Shown in pieces: positions 20,811 through 27,083 of a stretch of 64,000 nucleotides of DNA. Location: NCBI RefSeq assembly GCF_900566075.1, contig NZ_UPHU01000001.1, forward strand, positions 2,852,001 through 2,916,000. Direction: 5' to 3'. The DNA is from Mycobacterium pseudokansasii (GTDB lineage: Bacteria > Actinomycetota > Actinomycetes > Mycobacteriales > Mycobacteriaceae). A model generated the notes under the pieces. That model saw only the letters and a program-made list of their open reading frames with translations. It ran no database searches and was not told the DNA's origin. A program made the position numbers and the translations under genes. Numbering within the stretch: the stretch's first letter is position 1; each line of letters opens with the position of its first letter.

Positions 20811-21431
20811 ATGTCCGTCATGACCGGCCCCACCAACGACGCCGATGCCGCAAAGCCACACCGTGTCTTGATCGCGGAAGACGAAGCGCTCATCCGAATG
20901 GACCTCGCCGAAATGCTGCGAGAGGAGGGGTACGACATAGTCGGAGAGGCCGGCGACGGCCAGGAAGCCGTCGAACTCGCCGAGCGGCACAAGCCCGATC
21001 TGGTCATCATGGACGTGAAGATGCCGCGCCGCGACGGGATCGACGCGGCGTCGGAGATCGCCAGCAAGCGCATCGCGCCGATCGTGGTGCTCACCGCGTT
21101 CAGCCAGCGCGACCTCGTGGAACGCGCCCGCGACGCCGGGGCCATGGCCTATCTGGTGAAGCCCTTCACTGCCAGCGACCTGATCCCGGCCATCGAGTTG
21201 GCCGTCAGCCGGTTCAGCGAGATCACCGCGCTGGAACAGGAAGTGGCGGCGCTGTCCGACCGGCTGGAAACTCGCAAGCTCGTCGAACGTGCCAAAGGCC
21301 TGCTGCAGGCCAAGCAGGGCATGACCGAGCCGGAGGCGTTCAAGTGGATCCAGCGCGCCGCCATGGACCGGCGGACCACCATGAAGCGGGTGGCCGAAGT
21401 GGTCCTGGAGACCCTCGACACGCCCACCTAA
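20811..21431 (+). CDS. pdtaR: Two-component response regulator with ANTAR domain
   Basis: A 206-residue receiver-ANTAR protein, nearly identical by eye to M. tuberculosis PdtaR (Rv1626). Residues ~15-130 are the CheY-like receiver: acidic pair EDEA, phospho-acceptor Asp in LVIMDVKMPRRDG, Thr/Ser in VVLTAF and Lys in YLVKPF. Residues ~150-205 are the ANTAR RNA-binding domain (LVERAKGLLQAKQGMTEPEAFKWIQRAAMDRRTTMKRVA), which binds paired hairpins and prevents transcription termination. It partners with the PdtaS kinase elsewhere. Starts at 20811 and 20820 (MTGPTNDAD) are both possible; the second fits the homologue. The stop lies five bases before the interrupted terminator palindrome. Confidence 0.96.
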   Translation: MSVMTGPTNDADAAKPHRVLIAEDEALIRMDLAEMLREEGYDIVGEAGDGQEAVELAERHKPDLVIMDVKMPRRDGIDAASEIASKRIAPIVVLTAFSQRDLVERARDAGAMAYLVKPFTASDLIPAIELAVSRFSEITALEQEVAALSDRLETRKLVERAKGLLQAKQGMTEPEAFKWIQRAAMDRRTTMKRVAEVVLETLDTPT

Positions 21432-21435
21432 CGGC

Positions 21436-21443
21436 GCGAGCAG
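21436..21443. terminator. Left stub of convergent-gene terminator palindrome, split by IS110 insertion
   Basis: The eight bases GCGAGC-AG after the pdtaR stop are the outer end of the left arm of a palindrome whose remainder lies at 25381-25434. The reverse complement of the right arm at 25413-25434 reads GCGAGC followed by AGACGCAGAATCGCAC. The IS element therefore sits exactly inside this arm. Confidence 0.8.
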
Positions 21444-21539
21444 TTGTGCGGGGGGCTAGGCCAGCCCCGCGGTGGGGGATGAAAATTGGTGCCGGCCGTT
21501 CGGCTGGGTAAGTGGTTGTTTGGCGGGCTGGTGGGGTCG

Positions 21540-21700
21540 AGGCGTGGGGGGTGTTTCGGTGGGCCCCGTTGCGTCTGTGGTGCCGGTGAGCACGGCGAGC
21601 AGCTTGGGAGCGGAGAGTGCCCCGGTGGTTGTGCGGGGGCGGTGGATTGTTGCCTGTGCGCACGTGAGTGAGACTCCTGTTTGTTTGGCTCTCTCCGAAA
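21540..21700 (+). ncRNA. Candidate IS110 bridge RNA region (left end)
   Basis: IS110-subgroup elements encode a structured bridge RNA in the noncoding left end, upstream of the transposase. Here TTGCGTCTG (21569-21577) is complementary to the right half of the insertion site across the AG core, with one G-U wobble at its 5' end. GCGAGCAG (21595-21602) is identical to the left half plus core. Between them is a perfect hairpin GTGC-CGGTGA-GCAC (21580-21593). Two guide strands around a terminal hairpin is the layout of a target-binding loop. A donor-binding loop is less clear: GTGAGTGAG at 21664-21672 resembles the right end GTAAGTG plus AG. RNA limits are not defined by sequence alone. Confidence 0.6.
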
Positions 21701-21947
21701 CACGCTCCACGACAATAACTCTGGGTGAAGGAGTGCCACTATGGAGGTGATACGTCCGCGGTGTGTGGGTATCGATGTCTCGACGAAGGACGCCACGGCG
21801 TGTATCCGGGTTCAGGGGCAGGGTCGGCGTGCCACGTCGACGACGGTGAGCACGTGGGGCTCGACCACCGCCGAGATCTTGGCGGTGGTCGAGCATCGGA
21901 TCGCCGAGCAGGTCAGCTGCGTGGTGATCGAATCCACCTCGGAGTAT

Positions 21948-24390
21948 GTGCGACATGAGGGTGCATGAGTGAAGCAGGAGGCACCGTTTGGAGGTTCGGC
22001 TGATGCCGTAGGTGTAGTACTCGGGCCAGTGCGTGAGGGCCTGTCTTCGCCTCGGCGTGCTCTGCGGGTGACTGCGGGGTGCGAAGCCCGGGGTAGAAGC
22101 CGAAGCGGTTCGCGTTCCATCCGTGGACCGTGGGCGAGGAGAAGACCGGCGGGAAGCGAACGCGCTTCCCGGCTGCGGGGCGGCATCCAGTCGTCGTGCG
22201 GTGATGGGTGAACGCGAGTGAACCCCTGATGACGCCTTGTGAAGGTGACCCCCGCCGATGGGATGTGTCAGCGGGGCCGTAGGGACCCGCCGCTGGAAGC
22301 GGCGGGTGTCGGCCAGAGGATAGTCGCTGGTCGGGAGCGCATCACCGTCCCCGGGGTAAAGGGGGCACCCTGCCCGGTCGAATCTTGTTCATGCGCAACA
22401 TGACAACCCTGTTGGGGTCCGGTGAATTCTGCCGGTAGGCCGACCGTGGGGAAGGTGCAACTCCCCGGCAGGCGCTGGATGACCCAAGAAGCCGATGCCG
22501 ACACACCGAAAGGCAACGGGAAACCGGCAACCGCACGATTTGGCTCCTCCGCCAGATGGTAGCCGCATAACCGGTCGGATACGGGCGTGCTGCCCGGCCC
22601 GAAAGGGAGCTGACGTGGGTCGGGTGAGCCTGTGAAGACCAGATGATCGGAGACTCCAGAACCGATGGGCAAGTTGGACACCGTGACGGTGAACGGACCT
22701 GAGGACGAGATCATCGACTGGGACGCCGTGGATTGGCGCCAAGTCGAAGACGACGTACGGAGGCTGCGGCGACGAATCTTCACGGCGATGCAGGCGGGGG
22801 ACCTCAAGCGGGTCCGTAATCTGCAGAAGCTGATGCTGGGTTCCCACGCAAACGCTCTGCTGAGTGTGCGGCGGGTCACCGAGCTCAACGCTGGCCGCAA
22901 GACGGCCGGGGTCGACGGCAGGGTCGTGCTCGCGGGATGGGAAAAGGCCGAGATGGCCACCTGGCTGCAGCGCGACACCAACGCGTGGAGACCTCGACCG
23001 GTCAAGCGGGTGTTCATTCCGAAGAGCAACGGAAAACGGCGCGGCCTCGGGATTCTCGTGATCGCCGATCGGGCGCTGCAAGCGCTCACGGTCAACGCGC
23101 TAGAACCCGAGTGGGAGGCCCGGTTCGAGTCCCGATCGTATGGGTTTCGGCCAGGCCGTAGCTGTCAGGACGCGATGCAGGCGATCTTCGTGACCGCTCG
23201 CGGTGCGACCTGCAAACGCGTGTGGGCGCTAGACGCCGATTTGGCCGCCGCGTTCGACCGCATCGATCATGCCCATCTTCTCGCGCAGCTCGGCTCGTTC
23301 CCCGCGCGGGAATGATCGCGGCCTGGCTACGCGCGGGGGTGATCGATCAAGGTCGGTTCGCACCGACCGAGGACGGCAGCCCACAAGGCGGGGTGATCAG
23401 CCCGTTGCTGATCGTTGCCCTGCACGGAATGGAACAGGCCGCCGGAGTCCGCTATATCCGCACCGGCACCAACGCCGAAACGGCGCGGCCGGGCTCCCCG
23501 GTTTTGATCAGATACGCCGATGATCTGCTGGCCCTGTGCCACTCGCGGGAACACGCCCAACAGGTCAAGGCGCGGCTCACGGAGTGGCTGCGACCTCGGG
23601 GTCTGGTCTTCAACGAGGACAAGACCCGTATCGTGCACCTCGAGGACGGGGTGGATTTTCTGGGGTTCAACATCCGCCGCTACCGCAACAGGCTGCTGAT
23701 CAAACCCAGCAAGGCGGCCGTGAAACGGATCCGGGCACGGCTGACCACCGAGATGCGAGCACTGCGGGGCCACAACGCCCAGATGGTGCTCATCCGGCTC
23801 AACCCGATCATTCGGGGGTGGTCGGCCTACTACCGGCACTGCGTGTCGGCCCGGGTGTTCAATGCGCTGGACAATCACGTGTGGAAGCTCACCGACAAGT
23901 GGGCCAGATTCACCCATCCGCACAAGGGACGGCGCTGGATCGTGTCCCGTTACTTCGGCGCGTTCCACCCGTCCCGGCGCGACCGCTGGGTATTCGGTGA
24001 CCGCGACACGGCGCCTACCTGGTCAAGTTCGCCTGGACGGCGATCACCCGGCACACCCTGGTCAAGGGCTGGGCGTCCCCGGACGACCCTGCCTTGACCG
24101 ACTACTGGGCGACCCGGCGCCGCCGCGGGAGACCCCCGCTGGGCCGGGCCCGGTCGAGACTGATCCGCATGCAGCGCGGACGCTGCCCGCTTTGCGGCCA
24201 GCTACTGCTGCACGCTGAGGTCGAGCCGCAACACCCCGACGAGTGGGAGCAGTGGATCACTGCCACCGCCAAGGCGATCCGCCACCAGGCGATCATCGTC
24301 GATTCGGGGCCAGAGTCATTGGGTTATACCGCGTTCCGTCTCATTCACACACACTGCCGAGGCCGTCACCCAGACCGCATCGGCGTGTAC
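21948..24390 (+). mobile_element. Group II intron, 3'-truncated, inside the IS110 transposase
   Basis: The intron starts at GTGCGAC, matching the group II 5' consensus GUGYG, exactly at a codon boundary after transposase codon 69. About 715 noncoding bases follow, rich in GC hairpins and GAAA-type tetraloop sequences, the size expected for ribozyme domains I-III and the start of IV. The reverse transcriptase ORF begins at 22665. No domain V-like 34-base hairpin or 3' AY boundary is recognisable after the HNH region; transposase sequence resumes about 25 bases later. The 3' end, with domains V and VI, therefore appears deleted. The exact 3' junction is approximate. Confidence 0.82.
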
Positions 24391-24423
24391 CGTGCCGCCG
24401 GAGCCGATTCGGGTGTTGCGTGA
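22665..24423 (+). pseudogene. Group II intron reverse transcriptase/maturase/HNH, two frameshifts
   Basis: Three consecutive reading frames give one LtrA-like protein. Frame one (22665-23315) holds the RT N-terminus (DWDAVDWRQVEDDVRRL, GVDGRVV, YGFRPGRSCQDA, LDADLAAAFDRIDH). Frame two (from ~23310) holds SPQGGVISPLL, the catalytic RYADDLLAL, and the maturase region NPIIRGWSAYYRHCVS. Frame three (from ~24011) holds the end of the maturase (LVKFAWTAITRHTLVKGW) and the HNH nuclease RCPLCGQLLLHAEVEPQH with IHTHCRGRH. Each shift is the loss of one base within or beside a G run: CGCGGGAATG near 23308 and ACACGGCGCC near 24010. The third frame ends by reading into transposase sequence. Confidence 0.88.
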
Positions 24424-25380
24424 TCTGACCCGGGCGCGCACCTCCATCACCCGAGCGCGCACCAAAGAAATCCAGCGGCTGGAAAAGCCGCTCGAAGATG
24501 CCGGGATCAAACTGTCGGCGGTGGCCTCCAACATCGTCGGGGTCTCGGGGCGGGCGATGCTGGAGGCGTTGATCGGCGGGCAGCGTGATCCGGTGGTGCT
24601 CGCCGATCTGGCCAAACAGCGGCTCGCATTTTCGAGTGAGAAGATCCCCGCATCGACCGAGGCGTTGCGCGGGCCGTTTAGCGACCATCACGCGTTTATG
24701 GCTCGGCTGTATTTGGATCGCATCGACGCCCACGGCGCCGACATCGCCCGCCTTGAGGAGCGCATCGAGGAGGCGATCAAACCCTTTCAACCCGCCCGGG
24801 AATTGCTGATGAGTATCCCAGGCTTTTCCCACATCGTCGCCGATGTGTTTATCGCCGAGACCGGCGCGGACATGAGCGTGTTTCCCACCGCTGCCCATTT
24901 GGCGTCGTGGGCCGCGGTGGTGCCCGGCTGCAACGAATCGGCGGGCCGGGTCAAATCGGCCACCACCCGCCCCGGCAACCGCCACCTCAAAGCCGCTCTC
25001 GGGGTGGCCGCGCTGTCGGCAGCGCGTTCCAAAGACACCTACTACAACGCCCGCTACCGCCGCATCGCCGGCACCCACCGGCCCGCCACATCCCACCGCC
25101 GCAAAGCTCGCAGCCCGTCGGTGCCCGCCCTGATCGCCGTGGTCGCTGTCGAACACAGCATGCTCATTGACGCCTGGAACATGGTGGTCAACGGCGCCTT
25201 CTACCACGACCCCGGCGCCGACTACTCCACCCGACACCACCCTGGGCAAACCAAAGCAAAAGCCATCAAACAACTGCAGGCCCTTGGCTACACAGTCACT
25301 CTCGAACCCCTCACCCACGCCGCCCAACACCGGGGGCCCGCCACTCACCCGCTTCGGGTCACCGCATTTTCGAGTAAGTG

Positions 25381-25434
25381 AGACGCAGAATCGCACCGAT
25401 CCGCGCAGCGGAGTGCGATTCTGCGTCTGCTCGC
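25381..25434. terminator. Remaining palindromic terminator between convergent genes
   Basis: AGACGCAGAATCGCAC (25381-25396) pairs perfectly with GTGCGATTCTGCGTCT (25413-25428), with a 16-base loop. The right arm continues GCTCGC, whose partner GCGAGC is stranded at 21436-21441 beyond the IS. The original stem was 22 bp; 16 bp remain. There is no T tract. It ends six bases before the stop codon of the convergent thiolase gene, fitting a bidirectional terminator or REP-like palindrome. Confidence 0.75.
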
Positions 25435-25440
25435 CAGCGA

Positions 25441-26643
25441 TTACCGCGCCACGATCACCGACGAGCCGTGGCCGAACAGGCCCTGGTTCGCGGTGATGCC
25501 GACCTTCGCGTTCTCCACCTGCCGGCCGGTGGCCTGACCGCGCAGCTGCCAAGTCAGCTCACACACCTGGGCGATCGCCTGCGCGGGGATCGCTTCGCCG
25601 AAGCACGCCAGCCCGCCCGACGGGTTGACCGGGACCCTGCCGCCGATGGTGGTCGCGCCGCTGCGCAGCAGCGCCTCGGCCTCACCCTTGGCGCACAACC
25701 CCAGGTGCTCGTACCAGTCGAGTTCCAGCGCGGTGGACAGATCGTAGACCTCCGCCAGGCTCAGGTCCTCGGGCCCGATGCCGGCCTCGGCATAGGCGGC
25801 GTCCAGGATCTGGTCTTTGAACACCCGGTCCGGCGCCGGCACTGCCGCGGTGGAATCCGTTGCGATATCCGGCAATTCGGGCAGATGCTGCGGGTAGCGC
25901 GGGGTCACGGTGCTGACCGCACGTACCGACGGTACACCCCCTAGCGAGCCAAGATGCTTCTCGGCGAACGATTTGCTCGCCACGACCAGGGCGGCCGCAC
26001 CGTCAGAGGTTGCGCAAATGTCAAGCAGCCGAAGCGGATCCGAGACCACCGGGCTAGCCAGCACGTCGTCGATCGAGTTCTCCTTGCGGTAGCGGGCATT
26101 CGGGTTGTTCAGCCCGTGCCCGGAGTTCTTGACCTTCACTTGAGCGAAGTCTTCGAGACTGGCGCCGTACAGGTCCATCCGGCGCCGCGCCAGCAGCGCG
26201 AAATACACCGTGTTCGTCGCGCCGATCAGATGGAAGCGCTGCCAGTCGGGATCGTTCCTGCGCTCGCCGCCCACCGGGGCGAAAAAACCCTTCGGCGTGG
26301 TGTCGGCGCCGATCACCAGCGCCACATCGCAGAAACCGGCCAGAATTTGGGCGCGTGCGCTCTGCAGCGCTTGGGATCCGCTGGCGCAGGCGGCGTAGCT
26401 GGAGCTGACCGGCACGCCGTTCCAGCCGAGTTTCTGCGCGAAGGTGGCGCCGGCGACAAAACCCGGGTAACCGTTGCGAATGGTGTCGGCGCCGGCCACC
26501 AGCTGGATCTGGCGCCAGTCCAGGCCCGACTCGGCCAGTGCGGCGCGCGCGGCAACCACGCCGTATTCCGTGAAGTCGCGACCCCACTTGCCCCACGGGT
26601 GCATGCCTGCGCCGAGGATGTACACGGGTTCAGGCGTACTCAT
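25441..26643 (-). CDS. Thiolase-fold lipid-transfer protein (Rv1627c-like)
   Basis: A 400-residue thiolase-superfamily protein of the SCP-x/lipid-transfer type. The nucleophilic Cys position is in SSYAACASGSQALQSARAQI. The C-terminal GGLACFGEAIPAQAIAQVCEL and GHGSSVIV segments correspond to the active-site loops of thiolases. Such proteins in mycobacteria take part in sterol side-chain or fatty acid degradation with DUF35 partners; the exact substrate is not readable. ATG at 26643 was chosen because it overlaps the upstream gene's stop as ATGA, giving MSTPEPVYILGAGMHPWG; an in-frame start at 26658 is possible but less coupled. Confidence 0.93.
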   Translation of the reverse strand: MSTPEPVYILGAGMHPWGKWGRDFTEYGVVAARAALAESGLDWRQIQLVAGADTIRNGYPGFVAGATFAQKLGWNGVPVSSSYAACASGSQALQSARAQILAGFCDVALVIGADTTPKGFFAPVGGERRNDPDWQRFHLIGATNTVYFALLARRRMDLYGASLEDFAQVKVKNSGHGLNNPNARYRKENSIDDVLASPVVSDPLRLLDICATSDGAAALVVASKSFAEKHLGSLGGVPSVRAVSTVTPRYPQHLPELPDIATDSTAAVPAPDRVFKDQILDAAYAEAGIGPEDLSLAEVYDLSTALELDWYEHLGLCAKGEAEALLRSGATTIGGRVPVNPSGGLACFGEAIPAQAIAQVCELTWQLRGQATGRQVENAKVGITANQGLFGHGSSVIVAR

Positions 26644-27083
26644 GAGGCGATCCTCCACGCGTAGACGATGCGTTGCACACCGTCGTCGTCGGTGAACAGC
26701 GGCATGGTGGTCAGCTCCATCTCCATGCCCACTGTCAGGTCGGCCGCCAGCGTGCCCTCGACCACCTTGCCCAGCACGATCAGCCCCTCGTCGGCCAGCT
26801 CCACCGCGGCGACGGCGAACGGCTCAAAGGGATCCGGCGACCGGTAGGGCGGCGGTGGCGCGTAACGGTTCTCGGTGTAGCTCCAGAGCTTTCCGCGCCT
26901 CGACAGTGCGACCGATTCCAGCGAATCACCGGTGCAGCCCGGATTGGGGCAGTTGTTCTCGCGCGGCGGGAAGACATAGGTGCCGCACTGTGGGCACTTG
27001 CTGCCGGTCAGATGCGGGTTGCCGGCGTCGTCGGTGGCGAACCACCCGTCAATGGCCGGTGCTTGGCTGGTGACCTCAGGCAC
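26640..27083 (-). CDS. DUF35 OB-fold, zinc-ribbon protein (Rv1628c-like)
   Basis: A 147-residue protein. The N-terminal rubredoxin-like zinc ribbon has CPQCG and CPNPGC spaced by about 14 residues; a C-terminal OB-fold follows (SYTENRYAPPPPYRSPDPFEPFAVAAVEL, GKVVEGT). In actinobacteria these proteins form complexes with thiolase or MaoC-type enzymes of lipid metabolism and are encoded next to them. Here the stop codon overlaps the thiolase start (ATGA), so a direct partnership is likely. The upstream 93 bases separate it from divergent polA. Confidence 0.9.
   Translation of the reverse strand: MPEVTSQAPAIDGWFATDDAGNPHLTGSKCPQCGTYVFPPRENNCPNPGCTGDSLESVALSRRGKLWSYTENRYAPPPPYRSPDPFEPFAVAAVELADEGLIVLGKVVEGTLAADLTVGMEMELTTMPLFTDDDGVQRIVYAWRIAS

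Follow-up and report, generated by a model that had tools for sequence, protein, structure and literature searches.

The insertion sequences IS621 (PMC11208160) and ISEc21 (PMC11187229) are reported, in the parts of these papers drawn on here, to be guided by RNA. The bridge RNA of IS621 is encoded ahead of the transposase, within a long left end, and carries a target module followed by a donor module, with the core lying within the guides (PMC11208160; PMC11208158). Its bottom-strand guide is placed 5′ and its top-strand guide 3′ (PMC11208160), and the bases that follow the 3′ guide, named handshake guides, pair with the other DNA after strand exchange (PMC11208158). The seekRNA of ISEc21 likewise comes from an upstream non-coding region with two short segments for the two strands, the bottom-strand match 5′ and the top-strand match 3′, as in IS621, whereas in the IS1111-type elements described in the same sections (ISEc11, ISPa11 and ISKpn4) the top-strand complement comes first and the non-coding region lies downstream of tnp (PMC11187229). 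ISPa11 targets REP sequences (PMC11187229), and a further account places IS110-family elements within dispersed extragenic palindromes; the portion consulted deals with other bacteria and other palindromes than those discussed below, brings no RNA guide into its account and names IS900 of M. paratuberculosis as its sole mycobacterial example (PMC1525189).

Here we analyse an IS110-family element in a 64,000-nucleotide stretch of the Mycobacterium pseudokansasii genome (the window; contig NZ_UPHU01000001.1, positions 2,852,001 to 2,916,000) together with its relatives. Comparison of these sequences makes us highly confident that the left end of the element encodes a bridge RNA on the transposase strand, with two similar modules that would direct recombination at an AG core; that this predicted RNA is transcribed and bound by protein, in what order the strands are exchanged and that the system moves are points we infer. 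The element resembles IS621 in that its RNA lies before the transposase in a long left end, in the succession of target and donor modules, in the core within the guides, in handshake bases and in its transposase family, as far as the cited sections describe them (PMC11208160; PMC11208158). It differs in the arrangement of its guides: as described for IS621, the left-target guide is 5′ and the right-target guide 3′, which is reversed in the mycobacterial element, and the left-donor guide is 5′, whereas the guide that reads the right end of the mycobacterial element is the 3′ one (by its geometry, the left donor of IS621 would correspond to the right end). The core is AG (AA and TG in relatives) rather than the CT reported for IS621. 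To the preliminary description of this locus, which was made from the letters of the window, we add the family, the reversed guide order, the paired modules and the prediction of sites. In the openly available literature searched, we found no description of this family.

The element spans 21444-25382 on the + strand, including the right core AG at 25381-25382, with edges placed where copies from the same genome and from relatives diverge. Its neighbours, an ANTAR response-regulator gene (20811-21431, +) and a thiolase-like gene (25441-26658, −), are convergent, and the palindromic, terminator-like repeat between them is the insertion site. The left target half and core, GCGAGC-AG (21436-21443, +), lie outside the element according to the junctions of copies and to empty sites, and the right target half, ACGCAGAATCGCAC, lies at 25383-25396 (+), opposite the other palindrome arm; the target rebuilt across the joined flanks reads GCGAGC-AG-ACGCAGAATCGCAC. 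This reconstruction, already proposed in the preliminary description, holds: 22 of 22 bases in the opposite arm (25413-25434, +) are complementary to the joined flanks, and two related genomes with homologous flanks carry the empty palindrome without the element (cgcgagcagacgcagaatcgc in G015, gcgagcagacgcgtaag in G007). The dinucleotide AG is present at both joints and single in the empty sites, which indicates insertion without further target duplication; the window copy has an additional TGAG at its right end. The palindrome probably terminates transcription, and intergenic sites of this terminator-like kind would be safe for the host. The sequence GCGAGCAGACGCA is a dispersed repeat, with 12 copies against none of a reversed control in G000, 62 against 2 in G006 and 50 against 1 in G007.

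Sub-terminal inverted repeats of 6-9 bp occur in 16 of 20 scanned elements, in 15 of those at right-end position 8, and lie about 32-38 bp from the left end. By comparison with relatives they correspond in the window to GAAAAT (21481-21486, +) and ATTTTC (25366-25371, +); the window copy, whose longest sub-terminal match is a different one, is an exception among the 20, as are L089, L090 and L112. These repeats are intermediate in length between those of the IS110 and IS1111 groups: 2-3 bp are described for the IS621/ISEc21 type, usually 11-13 bp for the IS1111-type elements in the part of the source cited (PMC11187229), and 7-17 bp for the IS1111 group, where they stand about 7 bp from the left end and 3 bp from the right.

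The guides lie in the 297-nt non-coding region upstream of tnp (21444 to 21740), all on the + strand and where the preliminary description had placed two guide-like segments. Guide 1, TTGCGTCTG (21569-21577), is complementary to the top strand of the core and right target, with the core complement CT at 21575-21576, and guide 2, GCGAGCAG (21595-21602), is identical to the left target and core. Between them lies the target-loop module GGTGCCGGTGAGCACG (21579-21594), which contains the hairpin previously described, GTGC (21580-21583) and GCAC (21590-21593) around CGGTGA. Its perfect 4-bp stem and six-base loop are confirmed in the window copy but recur in only 4 of 58 tabulated elements, all four from the window's genome, and so are not a general feature. 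The G-U pair within the guide 1 match was also correctly noted and is peculiar to this copy of the repeat; the right side is ACGCAA in 10 of the 21 tabulated terminator insertions, and there guide 1 matches exactly. Guide 2 is followed by a handshake-like dinucleotide, CT (21603-21604), of which one base of two matches the left end in the window copy. A second module, the donor-loop module GTTGCCTGTGCGCACG (21649-21664), resembles the first, contains a base pair that is compensated in relatives and is followed by the donor guide TGAGTGAG (21665-21672), which matches the right end and core (7 of 8 with the window copy's TAAGTGAG).

The preliminary description had asked whether both guides covary with the flanking target in other copies, and they do, guide 2 strongly and guide 1 more weakly. 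A covariance model built on the guide region gave 82 matches. All but a second, weak one in L131 were taken further, and the 58 elements tabulated from these 81 include 55 whose left joint was placed, 45 whose right joint was placed and 42 with both. The table omits a second L075 copy, whose joints fit, L017, which was used in prediction, 13 elements without a left joint placeable by eye, and eight loci (L100, L101, L143, L144, L117, L124, L141 and L142) that share 170 upstream bases with a tabulated one and so represent the same insertion. Joints were set at the divergence between copies where several exist and otherwise by eye from left-end homology; because the guides were in view, bias is possible, and the out-of-genus scan below did not depend on such a choice of joints. 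Manual entry was used for guide 1 in 19 clades, for right ends and donor guides in 26 elements and for left ends in 35. Of 55 insertions, 48 have 4 or more consecutive nt before the core in common between guide 2 and the left target, and 54 have an equal core. Across 29 clades, 148 of 203 positions match exactly, against 78.4 ± 6.7 for permuted guides (maximum 105 in 20000), and across the 19 distinct guides 95 of 133, against 44.4 ± 5.6; since the clades are related, these and the following permutation values are not exact probabilities. Sliding the left target 1-3 nt leftward lowers the sum from 133 to 39-48 (in that scan, guide 2 is mis-parsed in L107, L092, L119 and L120). Examples of left targets that track guide 2 in relatives are AGGCTAG, AAATTAG, GGATTAG, TAATTCAG, AAATGAG, TATATCAG and ACGCCAG. 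In 29 of 35 elements the left end begins with the same two bases that follow guide 2; counted singly, 64 of 70 bases agree, against 40.0 ± 3.0 permuted.

The 21 tabulated terminator-type insertions comprise 4 in the window's own genome, 1 in G057 (L089), 4 in G064, 9 in G060 and 3 in G203. A guide 2 run of at least 5 nt precedes the core in 19 of them, and 19, all except L013 and L072, lie in a palindrome in which 14 or more of 22 bases are complementary, a level reached by 77 of 2000 random sites in the window. That the guides match palindromic, terminator-like repeats explains why the elements are found there. The same guides at sites lacking a half-match are few: on the left the exceptions are 2 of the 21 (L013 and L015, with poor sites), and on the right all 21 keep 4 or more of the 6 pairs, although 9 of 21 have at least one mismatch. 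Left runs also fall below 4 in L082, L109, L128, L108 and L118. Four insertions in G065 share the left target CTGTGTGC and core AG, followed by TTTCG or TCTCG, with the palindrome judged by eye; to the eye, L133-L136 (G065) and L139-L140 (G230), with unrelated guides, also seem to occupy palindromic extragenic sites.

For guide 1 and the right target, 19 clades give 68 of 133 pairs against 52.3 ± 5.1 permuted (p = 0.0019), and 41 against 19.7 when runs are counted (p = 0.0001). The match is convincing in the terminator group, in G065 and in G069/G324, and G329 and the group whose left target is AAGTCAG or similar match in part (3 of 7 reach 4 of 6 pairs); in G230 a GTGGC match appears by eye to be displaced by two bases. 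The proposal of one guide per strand therefore stands for the left target, and for the right target only in part of the clades. This pattern is what might be expected if guide 2 alone were used and guide 1 were a relic, or read DNA only in some clades such as those that target terminators: the left runs noted above are general, whereas only 10 of 24 non-terminator right ends reach 4 of 6 pairs and 14 fall short, including all from G018, G023, G002, G384, G293, G045 and G230. We nevertheless regard sole use of guide 2 as unlikely, though it is the most serious of the alternatives, as none of the 21 terminator insertions falls below 4 of 6 right pairs, G065, G069 and G324 reach 5 of 6 with differing sequences, and in several loci guide 1 changes its core complement together with the core. 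The core is AA in the left target and guides of G281; in other genera all three guides (guide 1, guide 2 and the donor guide) have TG in L170, L171, L175 and L180, and AA in L167. Outside the genus, guide 1 of L189 pairs at eight consecutive positions including the core (two G-U), that of L190 at 7 of 8 in its best register, with one mismatch, and that of L017 at 6; L164 and L174 show no match to the right target, and the core complement is absent from the guide 1 column of the out-of-genus alignment in L165, L168, L172, L185 and L190.

With two guides that read the two target halves as the preferred reading, their order can be compared with that of known systems. On the transposase strand the top-strand guide comes first and the bottom-strand guide second, with the core at the 3′ end of each, and this reversed order is seen wherever both guides match (the terminator group, G065, G069 and G324); in clades without a guide 1 match it is taken from the position of guide 1 alone. 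The bottom-strand match is thus 3′, as opposed to 5′ in the cited part of the ISEc21 account, and the top-strand complement precedes it as in the IS1111-type seekRNAs, whose non-coding region is, unlike that of the mycobacterial element, downstream of tnp (PMC11187229). Top-strand-first guides with an RNA upstream of tnp combine the IS1111 order with the IS110 position and so break the published coupling of the two, for which few elements have been tested. The donor module shares this inversion, so that the half with the 5′ target guide would still be joined to the half with the 3′ donor guide, as in IS621. We give an even chance to the proposal that this is a third bridge-RNA architecture, in which the RNA keeps its place before the transposase but both modules have their guide sets flipped, so that the 3′ guides read the left-adjacent target half and the right end. 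If so, the bottom strand might be exchanged first, by analogy with IS621, in which the top strand, paired with the 3′ guides, is exchanged first, and left targets and right ends could be read off the genome in mycobacteria and relatives. The order would instead be an artefact if the RNA were made from the opposite strand, and the strand of transcription is itself deduced. We consider this very improbable: the transposase strand places the core at the 3′ ends of the guides, followed by handshake-like bases, as described for IS621 in the section cited (PMC11208158), whereas on the opposite strand the core would fall at the guide 5′ ends.

Reading the RNA from the transposase strand also brings out a donor module of the same design. 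In five elements a module like GTTGCC(G/T)GTGAGCACG precedes guide 2 and is repeated 60-73 nt downstream, and the 8 nt after this second module equal the right end and core, exactly for CGAGAGAG, CGGATCAG, CGGACCAG and CCGGTCAG. The donor guide is also exact in L082 and L109 (CGAGTGAG), with the remaining elements differing at one or two bases, and over the six bases before the core it gives 131 of 156 identities with the right end against 84.7 ± 4.9 permuted. By eye, we found no guide complementary to the left end, and no general match of the two bases after the donor guide to the right target. Each module would consist of a 5′ segment, GTTGCC..GAGCACG and an 8-nt guide ending in the core, and the two look like mutual duplicates with a fixed 8-nt readout; the IS110 transposase with such a bridge RNA would recombine a circular element with palindromic GCGAGC-AG-ACGCA repeats at the AG core. 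With its compactness and its two similar modules, this RNA would offer work on programmable recombinases an instructive point of comparison. Guide 2 and the next two bases do reproduce the left junction, as they would if the segments were captured copies of an insertion junction and the protein alone chose the site; the same guides are found at different sites, however, a donor module of the same design serves the other end, and IS621 and ISEc21 are reported to be RNA-guided in the passages cited above, so that we see scarcely any room for junction capture.

Site prediction outside the genus bears further on the bridge-RNA reading. Guides were recorded before the flanks were examined, and at most 175 nt upstream were scanned with 8 nt of guide plus two handshake bases. 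The own guide scored best of all guides in 11 of 17 unseen loci, or in 12 of 18 when L017 is counted; as L017 had been seen earlier and is part of the model, 11 of 17 is the count for unseen loci. The summed score over the 18 loci is 157.5, against 129.1 ± 3.8 for permuted guides, none of 20000 permutations being as high. The misses are L161, where a contig end shortens the scanned region, L167, L171, and L170, L180 and L175, whose guides resemble one another. For an element on a Rhodococcus ruber plasmid (record NZ_CP038031.2), the ten predicted bases CATGCCAG followed by CA are present exactly. The donor guide scores 6.0 to 7.0 of 8 at the right ends of L164, L190, L189, L017 and L174; the other out-of-genus loci, where few right ends are within reach, offered no convincing right end for it. 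The target-binding-loop reading of the preliminary description thus gains support from guide 2, more weakly from guide 1, and from the donor guide, the handshake-like bases and the out-of-genus sites, and it would bring a family common among mycobacteria into the range of RNA-guided recombination, its target code being readable from sequence and having predicted sites outside the genus. That a GC-rich left end happens to resemble the flanking repeat has almost no likelihood left, even with a repeat common in the genus and six occurrences of GCGAGCAG on the + strand of the window, since, in line with the preliminary view that chance hardly explains the double match, 5000 left-end shuffles that preserved dinucleotides gave the 8-mer 29 times, the 9-nt complement 92 times and both segments once, and covariation and site prediction hold in other clades.

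The predicted bridge RNA region (21547-21679, +) matches the covariance model at 123 bits, the window itself being one of the model's 10 training rows. The model finds matches in 47 of 396 genomes of the genus, training sequences included, and the C-terminal part of the transposase in 63 of 198. Plasmid records gave two matches, both in Rhodococcus; phage records gave none, and Rfam returned no family for the bridge RNA region in the window. Support for an RNA structure is modest. Folding stability does not exceed that of shuffles in six sequences (z −0.29 to 0.85), and RNAalifold predicts no pairs on an 82-row alignment. On 10 rows it gives 22 pairs, which covary little, and on 18 rows it gives 18, of which five show double changes. 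The 18-row alignment supports a CCACGG/CCGTGG hairpin and the donor-module stem, in which a T-A pair is replaced by a compensated G-C in 7 of 18 rows. The window's own genome holds further copies and fragments of the element; one of these, L014, has apparently lost the target module near 534-632 through an internal deletion, with the rest of the element kept.

The transposase gene of the window copy is interrupted. Alignment to intron-free relatives places its 5′ part at 21741-21947 (+), the last base of which we take from the consensus intron start GTGCG; a group II intron without its 3′ part follows (21948-24391, +), with a reverse transcriptase gene in two frames (22665-23315 and 23222-24097), and then the 3′ part of the transposase gene, identified by its domain match to PF02371 (24392-25381, +). 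Comparison with relatives shows that about 154 bp of the transposase gene are missing from the window copy, together with the intron 3′ end. The introns of L085 (G002) and L094 (G023) are about 93% identical to that of the window, and that of L085 matches the Rfam group II family RF00029 in the part absent from the window. The missing gene stretch encodes a KTDVSDA segment that aligns with an ISCro4 segment with the same TD..D, residues that are catalytic according to the IS621 paper in the part cited (PMC11208158). The intact transposase of the relative L069 matches NF033542 ('IS110 family RNA-guided transposase'), has PDB matches to ISCro4 and IS621, and contains both domains of the IS110 family, DEDD (PF01548) and Transposase_20 (PF02371), of which the window copy keeps PF02371, its N-terminal domain being interrupted. 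The window copy cannot encode a complete enzyme and would be mobile only in trans. None of nine matches in its own genome is an intact transposase gene of this type, and the same truncated intron is found at different sites in L012 and L013 (>99.6% identity) and, over the aligned part, in L014; the window copy would thus have spread in trans, or the deletion through recombination between copies.

Two minor observations concern the element ends. The transposase frame of the window copy stops within the right end (stop 25379-25381; right end 25370-25382), and in other copies of its genome (CGAGTAAG, then ACAC) the frame would run into the flank. In G384, the right end of L092, CGTGTCAG, directly abuts a left end resembling that of L091, whose guide 2 is GTGTCAG, and an L091-like element may target the ends of its relatives.
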